DNA of 23,497 nucleotides, from the IMG/VR virus record IMGVR_UViG_3300002242_000771, positions 1 to 23,497 of that record. One strand, written 5' to 3'. Origin of the DNA: a virus. Shown piece after piece: positions 3,587 through 21,873 of this stretch. Position 1 is the stretch's first letter. The number at the start of each line of letters is the position of its first letter. The position numbers were made by a program, and so were the translations under genes. The notes under the pieces were generated by a model, which saw nothing but the letters and a program-made list of their open reading frames with translations, was not told the origin of the DNA and did not search any database.

Positions 3587-5137
3587 TTATCTCCTTCCGA
3601 CTCCTCTTAAATCAAAGGAGATTGTTGTTAATTTAGGGTTAGTCGTGCCACTCATTGTAACACGAACATTCATATACCTTCCTGATACTCTTTTATCTAG
3701 TTTGTAATCAGTTGAAGGGGTAAAGGTCTGATTAGTGTACGAAGCCGTATCACCAATATTACCTGTACCATCAATTGCCACAAGAACTACATTCTCTGAG
3801 CTAGGATAGTATTTAGTTAATTGTTTAAAGTCTGTTGTTCCAAGACTGTTCTCTTTCTGGATAAAGTATCCACCAGTTACATAAGAACTAGTTCCAAGTA
3901 TCTGGATATTAGCATCATCAGGACTAGCACCGTATATTTTAATTACACCATCTAGTTCAGTTTCAGCCATACCTAGTAAATTAGGGATATCCCTTTTATG
4001 CCATAACTTAGTTTCATAATCAATTACGAAAGCTTTATCACAGCCTTTACCAGAGTTACCCGTCTCAGAGTAACATAGCCAAACTTCTTTATCTCTCGTC
4101 TGCTTAAACATGAAAGACCTATCTCTTTGTGAAGCTACAACACTATCAAATAAACCATCTTGTATAATACCTTTAGATAAATCTACTTTCTGTGTTTGAC
4201 CATCATGTACGTATATACCATAATTACCCCAAACAAGATGTTGATTATTACCTATAGATTGTACACAACCTGGTGAATAGATGCCATCATCTTCAAAAAT
4301 TGGATCAAAGGCTAACACAAATGTATCACCTGTTTCCCTAACTTGTATTACCGCATCATCTTTATAGACTATGAAGTAAGGACCAAGTTGGAGACCATCT
4401 AAGATCTTACCAGGTGTTTGTGTCATGAATGCATCACCAGCAGTATTAGTACTAGATGCTTGCCAAGTCACATTAGTTAATGAAGCTATTGATGTAACCA
4501 CAGAGGACCATACTACATCTACCGGAAGACTTACATCATCTCCAGTACCTGCTGCGTGTTCCTCAAAGATATTCATAGCTATTAGTCTGTTGTTATACGG
4601 ACGTAAGATACGAGTAACTAGAGCTGAACCTGTAGAATCATCTATACCAGACCAGTTCGTAAGTTCACCTAGGGACCCTGCTGAGACACCTGCATCAGTA
4701 AACTGAGGTGGTGCATCATTAGCTGGGTTCACAATCAGAATCTCATTAAATACAAAGATCTGCGGTGGGTATAACTCATTAAATGTAAACTTCTGATCTG
4801 CTGTAGCATTAGTAATATCATTATAAGCCAATGTTGACGTATTATAAGTTACTACGTGGCAGAAACCATCTGTCCCATCTACAATGTAAGCAAGAACTAA
4901 ATAGTTAGTACCTGCTGGTGTGTACTGAGTAATCGCTATTAGGTCTCCACCTGAAATAACTGCATCTGAATCATGTAATACTACACTGTCAGTGAAGTCC
5001 AATACGCCTTGTACTGAACCATCTTTTGATCTTACGTTTAAGCTTTCGCTCCACGCTCCCGGCTGTAATTTATGTGCAGGTACATCTGTGATTAAACCCA
5101 TAGAACTGAAATCTATTTCTGGACTTTTAGTGAACAT
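3587..5137 (-). CDS. Tail nozzle / tail tubular B-type structural protein
   Basis: A 516-residue protein opening with SPEIDFSSMGLITDVPAHKL, an N-terminal style typical of podovirus tail nozzle proteins (T7 gp12, P22 gp10 and SU10-type nozzles), followed by about 400 residues of recurring beta-strand blocks consistent with a beta-propeller. Motifs such as IFVFNEILIVNP, YNNRLIAMNIF, FIVYKDDAVIQV, HLVWGNYGIYVHDG and VWLCYSETG look like successive blades. The nozzle would sit below the adaptor and form the distal end of the short tail that opens for DNA ejection. Its ATG at 5135-5137 lies inside the end of the HNH endonuclease gene (11-base overlap), with AAGGAG inside that gene. The call rests on N-terminal style, fold impression and gene order. 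Confidence 0.72.
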   Translation of the reverse strand: MFTKSPEIDFSSMGLITDVPAHKLQPGAWSESLNVRSKDGSVQGVLDFTDSVVLHDSDAVISGGDLIAITQYTPAGTNYLVLAYIVDGTDGFCHVVTYNTSTLAYNDITNATADQKFTFNELYPPQIFVFNEILIVNPANDAPPQFTDAGVSAGSLGELTNWSGIDDSTGSALVTRILRPYNNRLIAMNIFEEHAAGTGDDVSLPVDVVWSSVVTSIASLTNVTWQASSTNTAGDAFMTQTPGKILDGLQLGPYFIVYKDDAVIQVRETGDTFVLAFDPIFEDDGIYSPGCVQSIGNNQHLVWGNYGIYVHDGQTQKVDLSKGIIQDGLFDSVVASQRDRSFMFKQTRDKEVWLCYSETGNSGKGCDKAFVIDYETKLWHKRDIPNLLGMAETELDGVIKIYGASPDDANIQILGTSSYVTGGYFIQKENSLGTTDFKQLTKYYPSSENVVLVAIDGTGNIGDTASYTNQTFTPSTDYKLDKRVSGRYMNVRVTMSGTTNPKLTTISFDLRGVGRR

Positions 5138-5654
5138 AGTTTACTCCTTTTAATTTCCACCCTTTATGTTGTTTTGCTTTCCCAAAAATAACCTCCTCAA
5201 GGTGCGAAGACCTTGTACCATATTTCTCAGTCATCTCATATCTAGTGAGAAGCACCTCACCTAAAGTAGGGTGACACCACCAATACTTTGTTTGATCAGC
5301 GCCTGGGTGATTTAAACCTTTTTTCAAGGAACTCATTACAGATAAAGTACCTTCACTGTGCGAAGTACCAAATCTATTATTACCCTCTCCTCTCATCCTA
5401 GAGCTTTGATTATTTTTACTCTCTTCTGACCACTTTCTACCTAAATTAGTGTGACCGCTCATTAGTATAAAATTCTTATTTAAGATCTTATCCCCTCTCA
5501 TCTTATGAATCAGAAAGTGATCGTCAGGATGTAAAGCAATTAAATTACCTCTTCTCTCATCTCCACCTTCGCATCTAGGTTTAATATGATGAATGTGGAA
5601 ACCTTTCGGATAATCTCCTATTTGTTTCGTGTATATTCTTCTCAAGCTCATCAT
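5127..5654 (-). CDS. Free-standing HNH homing endonuclease with NUMOD-like DNA-binding region
   Basis: A 175-residue HNH endonuclease. Residues 20-50 carry the core: HIHHIKPRCEGGD with the H22-H23 pair, N37 in RRGNLIALH, and H46 in DDHFLIH, the expected beta-beta-alpha metal-site layout. Residues about 71-96 (GRKWSEESKNNQSSRMRGE and G-N-N-R-F-G) resemble a NUMOD3 DNA-binding motif. The C-terminus, ending HKGWKLKG, resembles the DNA-binding tails of phage homing enzymes. AGGAG is only two bases from the first ATG (5652-5654) but five from the second (5649-5651), so translation may begin at the second. The gene sits between the holin-like gene and the nozzle gene and overlaps the nozzle start. 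It is probably a selfish element that nicks a related phage genome at an allelic site. Confidence 0.88.
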   Translation of the reverse strand: MMSLRRIYTKQIGDYPKGFHIHHIKPRCEGGDERRGNLIALHPDDHFLIHKMRGDKILNKNFILMSGHTNLGRKWSEESKNNQSSRMRGEGNNRFGTSHSEGTLSVMSSLKKGLNHPGADQTKYWWCHPTLGEVLLTRYEMTEKYGTRSSHLEEVIFGKAKQHKGWKLKGVNYVH

Positions 5655-15504: not shown

Positions 15505-16551
15505 TTAAGCTACTAATGCACCGATACCTGAAATCATACCAGATGCGAAAGTGTTACGACACTCAAGTGTACACTCTTCTACTAACATACCAGTAGTTGA
15601 GTCACCTTTCTGACCAACGTCTACAGTGTGTAGTGGACGTAAAGTCGCTAGTGACCACCATGATGGATCGTAAACGATTACGTCTGTAGCACCACCGATA
15701 CCGTCAGAGATATCTACTGAGCTAGCTAGACCCTGGATGTAGTTAGGTACAACCTTAACTAAACCGAAGTCTGACTCGTATAACTCTACTGATTGACGGA
15801 TGCTTCCTTTCTCATCGATGTTACGACGAGTGTTTGAAGCAGCTTGTGCCAAGCTAGAGAAGTTACGCTTTTGAGTTGGAGACATCATTAATACTGATGC
15901 TTTACCACCCTCTTCATAGATACGCTGCATTACTTCATCAACGTCAGATAACGCTAATGAGTGAGTACCAGCTGTAGCTGATGCTGAAGGTAAGCCTAGC
16001 GCTGAACCGTCTGCTGCAGTGTGAGTACCTGAAGCGAATGCTGGAGTTGCAGCAGAAACGTCCCAAGTGTTGTATGCAGGAATGAATGATTGAATACCAC
16101 CCATTACACGACCAGCGTTAGCACCTACTGTATCAGCAGTACCAGTACCGTCAGTAATTTGACGTGCACCGATTAATGAATGCTCTAAATCACGCTTAAG
16201 CTCTGTACCTTTCTTCTTCATTTGGTATGCGAACTCAGAGTTACGACCAGCTTTAGATACTGAGTCTAAAGTCTTAGACACTTGCATGTGCTTAGTCAAG
16301 ATCTGAGTGTAGTTACCAACACGAGTAGTTGATACAGCTGAAACAGAACCTGCTGCGAAATCTGAACCTTCAGACTGCGCGTTAGTTGCTGGTGCAGTTA
16401 GCTCATCAGTTTGCCATTCGTGGTATACTGCTGTTGCTTTCTTGTTACCGATTGATGAAATAAAAGGAGTCTCATCACGCGTGATCATTGAAATGAACGA
16501 CGCTAAGTCTTCCTTTTTACCTTTGGTGTCTTCTGTTCTAAAAATTGCCAT
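15505..16551 (-). CDS. Major capsid protein (SU10/DUF5309-like family)
   Basis: A 348-residue HK97-fold-type capsid protein of the SU10 family. Diagnostic parts are the N-terminus (FRTEDTKGKKEDLASFISMI then R-D-E-T-P-F), the strand E-W-Q-T-D-E-L-T-A-P-A, the segment STTRVGNYTQILTKHMQVSK with S-K-T-L-D-S-V, and the helix QMKKKGTELKRDLEHSLIGA. A later signature is the M-M-S-P-T-Q-K-R block with FSSLAQAASNTRRN. The C-terminal strand region includes VIVYDPSWWSLATLRPLHTV. Length is normal for the family. It follows the scaffold gene, as usual, with AGAGGAA before the ATG. Codon choice looks more GC-rich at third positions than in the neighbours, in keeping with high expression. A strong hairpin follows the gene. 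Confidence 0.9.
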   Translation of the reverse strand: MAIFRTEDTKGKKEDLASFISMITRDETPFISSIGNKKATAVYHEWQTDELTAPATNAQSEGSDFAAGSVSAVSTTRVGNYTQILTKHMQVSKTLDSVSKAGRNSEFAYQMKKKGTELKRDLEHSLIGARQITDGTGTADTVGANAGRVMGGIQSFIPAYNTWDVSAATPAFASGTHTAADGSALGLPSASATAGTHSLALSDVDEVMQRIYEEGGKASVLMMSPTQKRNFSSLAQAASNTRRNIDEKGSIRQSVELYESDFGLVKVVPNYIQGLASSVDISDGIGGATDVIVYDPSWWSLATLRPLHTVDVGQKGDSTTGMLVEECTLECRNTFASGMISGIGALVA

Positions 16552-16587: not shown

Positions 16588-17655
16588 TTAGTCTAGTAAT
16601 CCGTCAACCATAGAATCTAGGAACGCATCTTGTTGTGCCTCCGAACCTTCTCCGGTTAGAATCTTCTTACGTAGTTTCTTTGCTTTCTCGTCAGTTTTAG
16701 CCTTTTTGTTCACAGGCTTTTTAGCTTTAACACTCTTCACAGGAGCCTTCTTACGTTTCTTAGCGGCAACTTTCTTACCGTCTTTAAGAGCTTTATAGTC
16801 GTACATTAACTGGATAGTTTTTGCATCAGTAATCTGTGCAAACTCTGGAAAACCTAGATCACTAGCCCATTTAACTACACCTTCGTAGTTGTCTTGCCAT
16901 CCTGGTAATTCCTTATTTAATGTAACAATCGCTGCATCCCTAGCCGCTGCTAGTGAAGCCTCATCAGCCTTCTTAGTCTCTGCAGAAGCTTCAGACTCTA
17001 ATCTCTTAGTTTCATCTTGCTTCTCTTTTAACTCTTGGGCTTTGGCTCGTCTAGCTTCCTGCCATTTAGGAAGTTCAAACATATCATCGTCAGCAATTAA
17101 CTGCTGTATTTTACGGTCATATGCCGCTAACTGTTGTTCATCAGAATCTACTTGATTCTTCAAAAGTTCAGCATTTTGCTCTTTTAGTGTAATTGACTCT
17201 TCTTGAAGTGTTTGAGCTTGTTTAAGCTGTTCACTGGCTTCAATGGATTTCTTATTAGCGTGTTGAGCAGTTTGATATCCACGAATTAGTTCTCCCATAG
17301 TTACTTCTGAATCTTCACCATCTACCTTTACAGGTACCATGAAGTCCATATCTAACTCTTCGGAATCTTCCTCTTCTTCTACTTCATCTTCAGGTAGGTC
17401 TTCACCATCTTCTTCTTCAGTATCTTCTACCACTTCTTCCTCTTCACTATCAAGTTCTTCAGTCTCAGGTGCCTCAGCTTCATCCTCGTCTGCTGCTTCT
17501 TCCACTGTGTCTTCCACCTCTTGCTCTGGTAGAACTTCTTCGGGTTCGTCCCCAAAAAATTCGCCAGCAAGACCTTCTAACATTGCGTCTTCGTCAACTA
17601 AGTTCAATTTAACATCTTGACTGTTCGTCAAGGTAGTTTCGATATTATCCGACAT
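16588..17655 (-). CDS. Capsid scaffolding protein
   Basis: A 355-residue protein with the layout of podovirus scaffolds. Residues about 36-102 are extremely acidic (long Glu/Asp runs). Residues 107-135 carry the conserved VPVKVDGEDSEVTMGELIRG and Y-Q-T-A motif seen in many phage scaffold or capsid-assembly proteins. Residues 138-245 are a long charged coiled coil. Residues 250-292 form a small domain, 293-330 a Lys/Ala/Pro-rich basic tail, and 333-355 a short amphipathic C-terminal helix (EAQQDAFLDSMVDGLLD), where scaffolds usually bind the capsid protein. It would guide procapsid assembly and then leave. Directly upstream of the major capsid gene. GGAGGAT precedes the ATG at 17653-17655. Confidence 0.85.
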   Translation of the reverse strand: MSDNIETTLTNSQDVKLNLVDEDAMLEGLAGEFFGDEPEEVLPEQEVEDTVEEAADEDEAEAPETEELDSEEEEVVEDTEEEDGEDLPEDEVEEEEDSEELDMDFMVPVKVDGEDSEVTMGELIRGYQTAQHANKKSIEASEQLKQAQTLQEESITLKEQNAELLKNQVDSDEQQLAAYDRKIQQLIADDDMFELPKWQEARRAKAQELKEKQDETKRLESEASAETKKADEASLAAARDAAIVTLNKELPGWQDNYEGVVKWASDLGFPEFAQITDAKTIQLMYDYKALKDGKKVAAKKRKKAPVKSVKAKKPVNKKAKTDEKAKKLRKKILTGEGSEAQQDAFLDSMVDGLLD

Positions 17656-17676: not shown

Positions 17677-17952
17677 TTATTTCTTAGCAGTTGGCTTTTT
17701 AGCAACTACTTTTGGTTTTTTAACAGGTACACATTTGCAATCTACGCATTCACAATTGCCGCCGCAATCGCCATCGCATTTACAAACCCCTGCCTCTTTC
17801 TTTAGACGTTCGATGATTAATTGAACATCGTTTAATCTATCAAGAAGTTGTCGTACCATAACACTATGACCACGATTACCTCTCATCTCTCTTAAAATGT
17901 TCTTCTCTTCAAGTTCAAACATCTCAATATCTTCCATTAAAAACTCACGCAT
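17677..17952 (-). CDS. Small coiled-coil protein with a seven-cysteine cluster and Lys-rich tail
   Basis: A 91-residue protein. Residues 1-54 are helical and charged (MEDIEMFELEEKNIL, VRQLLDRLNDVQLIIERLKK). Residues 57-74 read CKCDGDCGGNCECVDCKC, seven cysteines in 18 residues at positions 57, 59, 63, 67, 69, 72 and 74, in C-x-C and C-x2-C spacing typical of metallothioneins and other metal-cluster peptides. The end (KKPKVVAKKPTAKK) is Lys/Pro/Ala-rich like the scaffold tail. GGAGG lies upstream, and the ATG overlaps the previous stop by one base (TAATG). It lies between portal and scaffold. It may bind zinc or another soft metal, or make disulphides in the mature virion; the family is not recognised beyond this cluster. 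Confidence 0.78.
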   Translation of the reverse strand: MREFLMEDIEMFELEEKNILREMRGNRGHSVMVRQLLDRLNDVQLIIERLKKEAGVCKCDGDCGGNCECVDCKCVPVKKPKVVAKKPTAKK

Positions 17953-18197
17953 TATTTATCCTCCATTTCTTTTTCAAATATTGCATTGTCACCAGCTACC
18001 GCTAAAGCTTCAATCTGTCTCTTGACATCTTCTAAAGCTACGATAGTGTTATAGAGAGTCTCTCTTAGACCCTCTTGGTTCGGTCTGGTTTTACTCCATG
18101 CTTCTCTATAGTGCTGGCGTACCATGTCAAAAATGACAGGATATGCCTTATTAGCTATAATGGTCTTAGCATGTGAACCTAGTTCTACTTTATCCAT
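17952..18197 (-). CDS. Small helical hypothetical protein between portal and scaffold
   Basis: An 81-residue protein beginning MDKVELGSHAKTIIANKAYP. I chose the ATG at 18195-18197 because GGAGGT lies three bases before it; an in-frame ATG at 18224 would need to start inside the portal gene without a comparable site. The body is helical: a segment with MVRQHYREAWSKTRP, then a helix with LYNTIVALEDVKRQIEAL. Short proteins with a Y/W-x-x-A-W-x-x-T-x-P core followed by a helix of this kind occur in phage packaging clusters, but their role is unknown. Stop and next start overlap as TAATG. Confidence 0.75.
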   Translation of the reverse strand: MDKVELGSHAKTIIANKAYPVIFDMVRQHYREAWSKTRPNQEGLRETLYNTIVALEDVKRQIEALAVAGDNAIFEKEMEDK

Positions 18198-18216
18198 ATT
18201 ACCTCCGTTGTATGAA

Positions 18217-20214
18217 TTAACCAATCTTAGTTGGCTTACCAGTTGCTGCTTCTAATGCAACTTCCGCTTTGTCTTTTGCTTTCTGATGTTCAAACTTCTC
18301 TCTATCAAGCTCCATATCAGCTTGTTTCTTTTGAATGTCTGCCATCTGTTTCTGTAAAGTCAGTAACAACTTCTGTTGTTCCATCTCACCTTCTTTCTTA
18401 GCTTCCTCACCTGCAGCTTCTTGCTGTTGGGCAACCATCTGTTGCTGTTGTTGACCTTGTGGGGTATTAGGGTCGACAATAAAGTCAGCCCAGTTCTCAA
18501 TACCCATACTTTCCATCAACTGTCTAGCAATGTTAAACCCAGAGTCTGGATTAATAACACTCTTAGTCTCAGGTGCTTGGTATAACATAGGCATTACTTG
18601 GCTAGCTAACATCATCATATTCTCTTGAGTGTTAGCAGAGCTATTAGTACCTACATCAATATCAACAGTTAAGCTTTCTATCGGCATTAAGTCCTTTGGT
18701 GAAATACCATAGTATGCAAAATCCTTAAGAACACTATCTGCATTCTCTAAGATTAGATCATATACGCCTTTACACATATCTTTAAAGCCTGTCTCTGCGA
18801 ATCTACGTGCAATGTACGCGATACGCTTTTGAGATGCAGCTTGTACCTGTGCTACTTTACCTGCTGAGTTACCTGAATCAAACAACTTCTCGTTTACACC
18901 CTGAGCTGCTCTAGTCATACCAGTCGCCTGTTCTTTCTCTGCATTCATGAACTCTAGTAAAGAGAACGTCGATGGAGACAAGTTATCAGGAGTGATTGGT
19001 TGTACTGAGGCTACAGGAGAGCCGTTTGTAGGGATTATTTGATGTGGTTCAGGGCTTTGTAAGGCTCTGAAGTCAACTACGTTAGGATCGGCTAGGATTC
19101 GTCCGTAGTTAGTCAAATAAACATTCTCGATAAGACCTCTGGTGATCGCTGTCTTGATCTCTGTAGCAGAGCGTGTTGCATCTGCAATAGATAAGCCATA
19201 GAAAGCGTAAGGGATTTCGATAGGATTCAAATTAGCCAACGGAATACTATCAGCGTACTCCTCTAGTAAGATCTCTTCACCGGCTATGATGAAACGCTTT
19301 AGTTCTGCGATTCCATCTCCATCTCTATCTATTCTCATCCACACTTCGCTAACAGTAATTAATGTGTTAGCTTCACCTATACCTTCAGCTTCGGAGTTCT
19401 CCCAAATACCATTAACAGATTGACGATTATAATCCTCGCCATTAACTCCATTAATAGTGGTGAAATCTTGACCTCCTTCAGCCAATTCCATACCAACATC
19501 GAAACCCATCTCTCTTAAATCAGAAAGGGATTGCTCTGTTTGAATGCCTACAAACGTTGAGTCACTAATACTAGTGGCTGAACGATCAATCATAAAAGCT
19601 TCCGGTGGAATATTCTCTAATTTAATCTTAGATTTGTCCACCTTCCTCTTAATTCTTACTAAAGAGTAAACCTCATTGGTCTCATCAATAACCATATCCA
19701 TGATTTCTACATCATCTTCCATAGTTAAAGCATCAACCTCTTGTGCTGAGATATTCTCATACTCTTCAATCTTGTAATCTATTTTTTCTTCCCACTGCCA
19801 TCTAATAACAGCGTTCTTGAACATTAGGGCTGATTTAACCCATGTATTTAGTTCTGACCAACCGTTGTTCTTCGTAAAGATACAATGATTAGTTACTTCT
19901 GTTGCGATACCTGCTGATCTCGACTGTGTTGGATCTGCTGGGTTAAATTTAGCTATCTTATTATTAGATAACATTAACTCAGAGATAACCGCTAAGTACG
20001 AGTCTACGATTTCAATAGTGTCAGATGTAACCACTTGACTCACACCCATAGGCTTTAAGCGCCCTTTAGGTTGTTGAGTATAGTAATCTATAGCTTCTTC
20101 TCTTGCTTCGGTAAGCTCAGATCCATCAAGAAAGCCTCCAGTTGACTGGCGAATAGCTTCGTTGATGAGACCGTTTAGCTCCTCATCCGATATCTTTTTA
20201 ATCTTGTCTGCCAT
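18217..20214 (-). CDS. Portal protein (P22/SU10-like)
   Basis: A 665-residue portal protein. The N-terminal half shows a typical portal pattern: EAIDYYTQQPKGRLKP, then SQVVTSDTIEIVDSYLAVIS, then a segment on converting and pairing strands (ALMFKNAVIRWQWEEK). Later markers include LENIPPEAFMIDRSATSIS, the D-x-D-G-D-G-I-A-E-L-K-R-F block, PIEIPYAFYGLSIADATRS and the helix with AQVQAASQKRIAYIARRFAE. The last about 85 residues are Gln-rich and coiled-coil, matching the barrel or crown of large portals. It forms the dodecameric ring through which terminase pumps DNA and to which the adaptor binds. It starts 9 bases after the terminase stop codon with AAGGAA before the ATG. Confidence 0.88.
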   Translation of the reverse strand: MADKIKKISDEELNGLINEAIRQSTGGFLDGSELTEAREEAIDYYTQQPKGRLKPMGVSQVVTSDTIEIVDSYLAVISELMLSNNKIAKFNPADPTQSRSAGIATEVTNHCIFTKNNGWSELNTWVKSALMFKNAVIRWQWEEKIDYKIEEYENISAQEVDALTMEDDVEIMDMVIDETNEVYSLVRIKRKVDKSKIKLENIPPEAFMIDRSATSISDSTFVGIQTEQSLSDLREMGFDVGMELAEGGQDFTTINGVNGEDYNRQSVNGIWENSEAEGIGEANTLITVSEVWMRIDRDGDGIAELKRFIIAGEEILLEEYADSIPLANLNPIEIPYAFYGLSIADATRSATEIKTAITRGLIENVYLTNYGRILADPNVVDFRALQSPEPHQIIPTNGSPVASVQPITPDNLSPSTFSLLEFMNAEKEQATGMTRAAQGVNEKLFDSGNSAGKVAQVQAASQKRIAYIARRFAETGFKDMCKGVYDLILENADSVLKDFAYYGISPKDLMPIESLTVDIDVGTNSSANTQENMMMLASQVMPMLYQAPETKSVINPDSGFNIARQLMESMGIENWADFIVDPNTPQGQQQQQMVAQQQEAAGEEAKKEGEMEQQKLLLTLQKQMADIQKKQADMELDREKFEHQKAKDKAEVALEAATGKPTKIG

Positions 20215-20223
20215 AATAGTTCC

Positions 20224-21873
20224 TTATATCCAGTTATTATTCTGAGGTGGTATGAACGTATGTCCAAAACCTACTCTATCATTAGTTAGTTTATCAATGT
20301 GCGTACGATACACTTCACAAGCTATTGCTAAGCTCATTACAGTATCATCAAAACACCCGGGTCCTGCGTTAGTAGCACCCTTCTCGTCTGCTAAGTAATC
20401 TTTAAGCTCTTGAATAATTATAGAAGATCTAATACTTAGTTCTTCTTCAAATATCCAGTTCTTTAAGTTACCTATAATAGCAGGTTTAGACGCACTAGTT
20501 GTTCTAAAACCAAGTCTAATACCTTCCTCATTGGAAATATTAGCAATCTTAGTTTGATGATATAAATTTACATAATTCATATCTTTTAACTTCTGTAGAG
20601 TCGATACACCCATAGAATTACTTTCTACAGCAAGTAAGGCATTATTAAAATACCTACCTAAGTAGAATAACTCCTTTCCGAATGCGGAAGGGTCAATTCT
20701 ATTGTTTCTATAAAGACCTACTACTTCTCTCTTTGTATTAAGAACTACAGCTGTACTATAGTCCTGTCCTACACCTAGAGATACATCTGCTCCGATAATA
20801 TACTTCTCTTCAAAAGAAGGAGCTTGCCATATTTCTAAATGACCTTCTCTTTGTTCATCCCAAGACATCATCTGTGGGTTAAAACTTCTTATACTATCTG
20901 CAGGTTCTAATTTTTGTTTCTCAACCTTATCAATATCAAATACATTAGAGCCAGATACCTGGAAGGCTTCTTCAGGAGTCGCCGGATATTCCTGTGCGAA
21001 CTTCTTTGAACCACCTTCACCAATCTTCATTCGTCTCCACCAAAGCTGTCCATCAGTTAAATCGTATAATTCGATTAAACCTTCTTCTTCTTTAGTTCTT
21101 ACGAAGTCCTTTGGGGGCTCCATCGTGTACTCTTTAGTCATGTGCCATGGTAAGAATACAGGGACATAGTCATTAAGACCTTGCTCTGCTTTCTTCCACA
21201 TCTCATAAAAAGGACCAGAGGCACCATTAGCTGTAGACTCTAGAATGATCTCAGTACCATTAGCACTAGATACACCCTGGAACAATCCAGCTAGGATCTT
21301 CTCTTGGTTTTGCCAGAACGCCACCTCAGAACAATGTAGAATTGTCGGGGTCGTTCCTCGTCCTGCTTCTGGAGAACCAGCTGTATACAGTCTGAATCCA
21401 GAATCGTTATGAGCGAATTTAATTTCTTTTGCATTTGATTTTACAAGTTCTGGTTGTGAGCCTCTAGGCATCCTCTCAATGAATTGCTTACTCATGGTAA
21501 ACAAAGCATCAGATGTAGCACTATCATGTGCTAACACAACTGAACGTGTATATGGAGTATGTAAGGTCTTCCAGAATACTCTTCCAGCAGTATATGTAGA
21601 TATACCTTGCTGACGAGCCTTTAGGATTAATACTCTTACTCTCCCTTTCTCTTTAAGCTGTTTCTGTACAGCATCGTGAATCTTTTGCTGAGCCTGATTG
21701 AACTTAAAAGGTATGTAACCTTGAGCTGCATCTTTGGTGATAATTTTAAGTCTCTCTTCTGAGAACTTACCAAAGTCTTCTGCATACTCTTCATTTTTCT
21801 TCTTGCGTGCTAATTCTTTCTTAAGTTCGATTCGCTTCGCTAAATGAAGCTTATAATCATTATCTTTTTTCAT
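20224..21873 (-). CDS. terL: Terminase large subunit (packaging ATPase and nuclease)
   Basis: A 549-residue packaging motor. The ATPase domain carries a Walker A-like KARQQGIST at 85-93 after the strand RVRVLIL, a Walker B-type strand with TPTILHCSEVAFW around 175-187 (catalytic E183; the usual Asp before it is Ser, as in related terminases with a SEV motif), and coupling motif III, ILESTANG, at 210-217. The nuclease domain has the RNase-H-like acids D363 (IIGADVSLGVGQDYS), E417 (LLAVESNS) and D509/D510 (GCFDDTVMSLAIA). Length is usual for the family. It cuts and translocates genome concatemers through the portal, whose gene follows directly. GGAGG precedes the ATG at 21871-21873. No small terminase is recognised in the window. 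Confidence 0.93.
   Translation of the reverse strand: MKKDNDYKLHLAKRIELKKELARKKKNEEYAEDFGKFSEERLKIITKDAAQGYIPFKFNQAQQKIHDAVQKQLKEKGRVRVLILKARQQGISTYTAGRVFWKTLHTPYTRSVVLAHDSATSDALFTMSKQFIERMPRGSQPELVKSNAKEIKFAHNDSGFRLYTAGSPEAGRGTTPTILHCSEVAFWQNQEKILAGLFQGVSSANGTEIILESTANGASGPFYEMWKKAEQGLNDYVPVFLPWHMTKEYTMEPPKDFVRTKEEEGLIELYDLTDGQLWWRRMKIGEGGSKKFAQEYPATPEEAFQVSGSNVFDIDKVEKQKLEPADSIRSFNPQMMSWDEQREGHLEIWQAPSFEEKYIIGADVSLGVGQDYSTAVVLNTKREVVGLYRNNRIDPSAFGKELFYLGRYFNNALLAVESNSMGVSTLQKLKDMNYVNLYHQTKIANISNEEGIRLGFRTTSASKPAIIGNLKNWIFEEELSIRSSIIIQELKDYLADEKGATNAGPGCFDDTVMSLAIACEVYRTHIDKLTNDRVGFGHTFIPPQNNNWI

Follow-up and report, generated by a model that had tools for sequence, protein, structure and literature searches.

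Our results tentatively suggest that a small protein with seven clustered cysteines (the Cys7 protein), encoded in the head operon of a marine phage, is a head-assembly accessory protein with an optional thiolate metal site, probably for zinc, between a two-helix hairpin and a basic tail. The DNA under study is a stretch of 23,497 nucleotides (the window), whose source is an uncultured marine phage of the SU10-like type. From the sequences compared, the cysteine cluster looks like a recent addition specific to this lineage, and not like a standard head component, because nearly all relatives lack it.

The Cys7 gene and its protein

The Cys7 gene encodes 91 aa at 17677..17952 on the minus strand, which is open across this whole interval; the plus strand is interrupted there. 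Read by eye, a Shine-Dalgarno-like GGAGG (17960..17964, minus strand) lies 7 nt before the ATG, and this ATG overlaps the TAA stop of the preceding gene to give TAATG. Because of the Shine-Dalgarno site, the TAATG coupling and the syntenic homologues found in place in 62 IMG/VR contigs, we conclude that this open reading frame is a real gene.

The minus strand carries, in this order, the terminase large subunit (20224..21873; phrog_2, E = 2e-36), an SU10-type portal protein (18217..20214; PF23899, E = 5.7e-141), a small helical protein (17952..18224; phrog_8161-like, E = 1.2e-6), the Cys7 gene, a head scaffolding protein (16588..17655; phrog_3927, E = 1.9e-17) and the major capsid protein (15505..16551; PF17236, E = 1.7e-80). 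The N-terminal part of the scaffold is strongly acidic (97 Asp and Glu in 355 aa). The portal and capsid families together identify an SU10-like head module. The earlier note had placed the Cys7 gene between portal and scaffold. It does lie in the head operon just before the scaffold, but a second small helical gene intervenes on the portal side. This neighbour is of the same family as LUZ24 gp64 (phrog_8161), which occupies the same operon region, the interval between portal and scaffold. The Cys7 protein is unlike this family, and profile comparison gave no sign of paralogy between the two small genes (probability 0.2%). The neighbour probably starts at the ATG at 18197 (81 aa) and not at the TTG at 18224; its relatives begin with MDKVELG. 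Also amid structural genes, the minus-strand open reading frame at 5127-5654 encodes a protein that resembles an HNH/homing endonuclease (HIHHIKPRCEGGDERRGNLIALHPDDHFLIH, a motif seen by eye).

The translated gene bears out the previously described cluster of seven cysteines in CxC and Cx2C spacing within residues 57-74 (17731..17784, minus strand; predicted unstructured). They stand at residues 57, 59, 63, 67, 69, 72 and 74 (CxCx3Cx3CxCx2CxC). The helical N-terminal domain and Lys-rich tail of the same description were likewise recovered, in the sequence as well as in an AlphaFold2 model (34 alignment rows; mean pLDDT 69, pTM 0.51). The model predicts a two-helix hairpin at good confidence, with helix 1 at residues 2-25 (17878..17949, minus strand) and helix 2 at residues 31-54 (17791..17862, minus strand), both conserved in the family alignment. 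The remainder is predicted to be disordered, including the Lys-rich tail at residues 77-91 (17680..17724, minus strand), which is kept in kind across relatives. The pLDDT of the cysteine segment is low (51 in block 61-70 and 43 in block 71-80), a value to be read in the light of the fact that AlphaFold does not model metals.

Cysteine makes up 7.7% of the whole protein, and the density of CxC and CxxC motifs is confined to residues 57-74. Across the 26 other likely genes of the window there are only 44 cysteines in 7,453 residues (0.59%). At this frequency, and assuming independence, seven cysteines within 18 residues would be expected ~6e-8 times in the window.

Relatives and the distribution of the cysteines

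Sequence searches with the Cys7 protein gave no informative relative: no model of Pfam or NCBIfam (at E<=10) or of PHROGs (0 matches) fitted it, and the phage collection held no relative, its sole match being a Lacticaseibacillus phage protein at E = 7 (42.9% over residues 25-59). The best match of a BFVD fold search had E = 0.38, and those listed were short helical pairs or partial overlaps, hence uninformative. Scans of IMG/VR with the Cys7 protein and the portal yielded 77 distinct contigs, which were searched with a profile built from the N-terminal half. A separate search with this domain, as the earlier note had advised, proved fruitful, with a homologue in 62 of the 77 contigs; the tail is complete in 60 of these and cut at the contig end in 2. 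The 15 contigs without a match consist of 4 that are cut off ahead of or inside the gene, and 11 from distant lineages (7 with a finger module, discussed below, and 4 without). The 77 do not include L184, L191, L195, L225, L228 and L237-L240, where the portal or the next gene is cut off, nor L203-L216, whose portals are 21-26% identical.

The Cys7 protein belongs to a hairpin family of SU10-like marine phages. It has the conserved REMRG...RG...VRQLL..LN.VQ followed by a Lys-rich tail, and its gene lies directly before the scaffold and after the phrog_8161-like gene. The hairpin is conserved over 34 aligned rows and the Lys-rich tail is retained with or without the cysteine segment; both the linker and the tail are freely variable in their length and sequence. 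Syntenic relatives (e.g., L005, L009 and L177) share the place, the hairpin and the Lys-rich tail, but differ from the Cys7 protein by their Cys-free tail. This is the general condition: in 58 of the 60 relatives with a complete tail the hairpin is kept and the tail is Lys-rich and free of cysteine. Only two relatives, L001 and L160, have cysteines in the tail, which brings the array to 3 of 61 sequences when the window is counted. L001 is 69% identical to the Cys7 protein and has all seven cysteines in register. L160 is a shorter protein with a CxCxCxC array, different from that of the window, in the same linker. Further IMG/VR scans with L001 and L160 as queries matched only themselves.

Hence, conservation of the cysteines, which the earlier note had proposed as a check, holds for the nearest relative (7/7) and fails for 58 of 60 family members, so that the cluster is not a family-wide feature. 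The absence of cysteines from these 58 relatives therefore indicates that the family's role in head assembly does not need them. This contradicts a family-wide need for the structural metal site that had been suggested; the dense cluster and its full retention in L001 speak in favour of the site itself, and a lineage-specific metal site in the Cys7 protein is plausible from the sequence. Of the roles put forward in the earlier note, virion-associated metal or redox function or a structural site, the last agrees best with the data.

An alternative explanation might be that the cysteine segment arose when a disordered linker drifted or expanded under little constraint, and that it has no specific function. 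The freedom with which linker and tail vary among relatives, and the presence of an array in only 3 of 61 sequences, would agree with this. However, the seven cysteines of L001 are in exact register although more than half of the intervening residues have changed: 6 of the 11 residues between the cysteines differ from the window, whereas none of the 7 cysteines does, and 3 cysteine codons have changed synonymously. The chance of all six changes sparing the seven cysteines is 0.025 for this single sequence pair. The comparison is suggestive of selection keeping the cysteines, and the rarity of cysteine in the window phage also argues against drift, which we consider unlikely.

The number of small genes at this place was compared with that of other phages. 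One small gene follows the portal in LUZ24, SU7, Sulfitobacter pCB2047-C and the Vibrio phages SJSY21 and BA6. In CRP-7 and Octadecabacter DB virus 2 two lie ahead of the scaffold or of the following long gene, and a long and a small open reading frame follow the portal in two Manatee Spring genomes. From these counts in the relatives that were opened, the Cys7 gene occupies the place of the second small gene, which is present in only some lineages. In the nearest named phage by portal (45%), Roseobacter phage CRP-7, the positional counterpart is gp57 (MK613349), likewise directly before the scaffold and after a phrog_12967/8161-like small gene. It resembles the Cys7 protein in its position and in a basic stretch near its end, but it has no cysteine at all.

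A more distant lineage has a different module at the same place. This lineage is represented by seven contigs (L241-L247), with a portal that is 45% identical to the query, and the gene immediately preceding the scaffold terminates in CEHCGQTGLTKLTYGRWHGDKC, a CxxC...HxxxC module. The gene of L241 (5582-5875) has a zinc-finger-like end of the homing-endonuclease type, and residues 70-95 of its product resemble the finger that phage homing endonucleases carry (phrog_27406, E = 1.3e-4). This C-terminal finger, shared by L241-L247, is of the CxxC-x12-HxxxC type and unlike the Cys7 array. The L241-type proteins gave no match with the N-terminal-half profile; what they have in common with the Cys7 protein is the gene place and a Lys-rich linker. 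Because they lack sequence homology to the Cys7 protein, they are, as far as sequences tell, analogues by position only. In their relatives L248 and L251 the tail is basic and the finger absent. With the Cys7 array and the L241-type finger at the same spot, optional, likely metal-binding modules before the scaffold would come in at least two forms.

A proposed optional metal site in an assembly protein

We propose that the Cys7 gene product acts as an accessory protein of procapsid assembly. Its two-helix hairpin probably docks on the portal, the scaffold or the neighbouring small protein, and the disordered Lys-rich tail probably binds to the strongly acidic scaffold or to DNA, although the docking partners and the target of the tail are guesses. 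The working parts of the family are probably this hairpin and tail, which, judged by place and charge, would aid scaffold-portal or scaffold-DNA organisation. In this lineage, a short seven-cysteine segment would have been added to the linker between them. In the reducing cytoplasm of the host the segment would most likely bind one small thiolate metal cluster, with Zn(II) as the likeliest metal; both its spacing and its conservation suit thiolate binding. Metal binding could make the floppy linker fold up as a compact knob, and thereby alter how the basic tail is presented. The site would be an optional refinement that head assembly in the family does not require.

The available part of a study of phage SU10 reports that mass spectrometry detected the portal (CDS 6), scaffold (CDS 8) and capsid (CDS 9) proteins, while CDS 7, the gene between portal and scaffold, was not among the particle proteins detected (PMC4281155). 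Such an absence would fit a transient assembly factor, although small proteins are easily missed and the link between CDS 7 and the Cys7 protein is positional. The accessible text of PMC9509320 makes no mention of gp7.

Alternatively, the cysteines might be a redox element, in which disulfides formed after lysis lock the protein or cross-link mature heads. With seven cysteines, an odd number, and a CxxC, cross-linking once oxidised is conceivable. Yet a conserved odd number and CxC pairs better suit thiolate clusters than defined disulfides; the scaffold and the neighbouring small protein contain no cysteine, and the portal and capsid proteins only 2 each. We regard this explanation as quite unlikely.

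Adrenodoxin-type [2Fe-2S] ferredoxins hold their cluster by four cysteine ligands (C-x5-C-x2-C-xn-C) in a beta-grasp domain. Likeness to their C-x5-C-x2-C loop would make the segment an iron-sulfur site, as a remnant of this loop or by convergence on it. A phmmer search against the PDB gave 13 matches, with ferredoxin VI first (E = 0.072) and putidaredoxins at E of about 1, over DCGGxCxCxxC. However, a cysteine-rich query reaches such E-values by chance, the DCGG part reads KCDG in L001, there is no fourth distal cysteine, and a protein of 91 aa with a helical model leaves no room for the fold. The likeness was rejected as chance, and a ferredoxin-type site is highly improbable.

Metallothionein likeness and a possible hydrothermal link

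Metallothioneins are small Cu- or Zn-thiolate proteins, such as the bacterial SmtA (PF02069) and the fungal 7-Cys Cu-metallothionein. Like the Cys7 cluster, they contain a dense CxC array in which few of the intervening residues are hydrophobic, but the Cys7 cluster is short and appended to a helical domain. Of the metallothionein likeness claimed by the earlier note, high cysteine content with CxC/CxxC motifs applies to residues 57-74 alone, and no metallothionein model of Pfam or NCBIfam matched at E<=10. Among the papers listed in literature searches on phage or viral metallothioneins, auxiliary metabolic genes (AMG), viromes and hydrothermal topics, none described a phage metallothionein in its title or the opening of its abstract.

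The habitat of the relatives bears on this likeness. L001 and L160 stem from one hydrothermal-plume metagenome, IMG sample 3300001679; the available part of PMC4660358 gives this sample as Tahi Moana, a deep-sea vent site. Apart from these two, none of the 60 relatives carries a sample number listed in that part. A cysteine tail thus occurs in 2 of 2 plume contigs versus 0 of 58 others, with the window not counted (nominal p = 0.0006, post hoc and ignoring kinship). The same sample was used in PMC8190135, the available portion of which does not mention a Cys7 protein. A portal tree was built from 36 rows, hand-picked from the relatives' contigs. In this tree the window and L001 pair firmly (100/99), and L160 is placed weakly with a Cys-free clade (81/43). 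The cysteine-tail label requires two changes on this tree, and a single change sufficed in just 16% of bootstraps. Possibly, the tail was gained twice, or gained once and lost once.

These results might also be explained if the cysteine tail acts as a metallothionein-like buffer that binds up soft metals (Cu, Zn, Cd) inside the infected cell, or carries them within the particle. The tail would then be an adaptation to metal-rich hydrothermal-plume water, with head assembly merely the vehicle that gives a high copy number. The CxC-dense array, the shared vent sample, the two changes on the portal tree and the cysteine-rich mini-proteins of unrelated phages, one of them in a structural operon (L158, see below), are all in line with buffering. 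However, seven cysteines per small protein offer little capacity unless the copy number is high, and the mismatch with metallothionein models counts against it as well. We see buffering as a somewhat unlikely but serious alternative to the optional site in an assembly protein.

A bolder reading, which we consider improbable, is that SU10-like phages of deep-sea hydrothermal plumes gained a metallothionein-like site in a procapsid accessory protein more than once, and that their heads or particles carry Zn or Cu. If so, the bound metal in assembling heads or particles would tune assembly or buffer metal in the infected cell. We know of no earlier proposal of a metal site in an accessory protein between portal and scaffold. 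For phage tails such sites have been found or suggested, for example in a tail fibre with potential iron-binding domains, as described in the accessible part of PMC11705849. More metagenomes would allow a direct test of the plume link. A protein of hairpin and basic tail, with a linker that takes up cysteine modules in some lineages, would also provide a compact model of tinkering in phage head assembly.

Neither host nor donor could be traced. The portal alignment matched no relative in a genome collection of 84,980 species, and hence gave no hint of the host. A stricter form of the cysteine pattern (with D-G and D) had 0 matches in this collection, so that no host donor was found for the exact motif; in IMG/VR it matched 2 stretches, L001 itself and L220. 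The exact cysteine spacing occurred in at least 120 IMG/VR stretches, which were nearly all translated frames of low-complexity cysteine runs without sign of genes.

The one plausible gene among these stretches is that of L158 (1312-1398), an open reading frame of 28 aa with 9 cysteines (MVKCEKCGCECDCKNNCQCTDCECKKEE), packed amid the structural genes of an HTVC023P-like marine phage. It had no match in the phage collection, and five relatives have no annotated gene in its place in the adaptor region. Small cysteine-rich proteins with a hydrophobic, lipoprotein-like N-terminus are encoded by other phages at L011:7340-7546 and L220:1485-1670 (minus strand), the latter being a cysteine-rich putative lipoprotein. 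Both end in cysteine arrays similar to that of the window.
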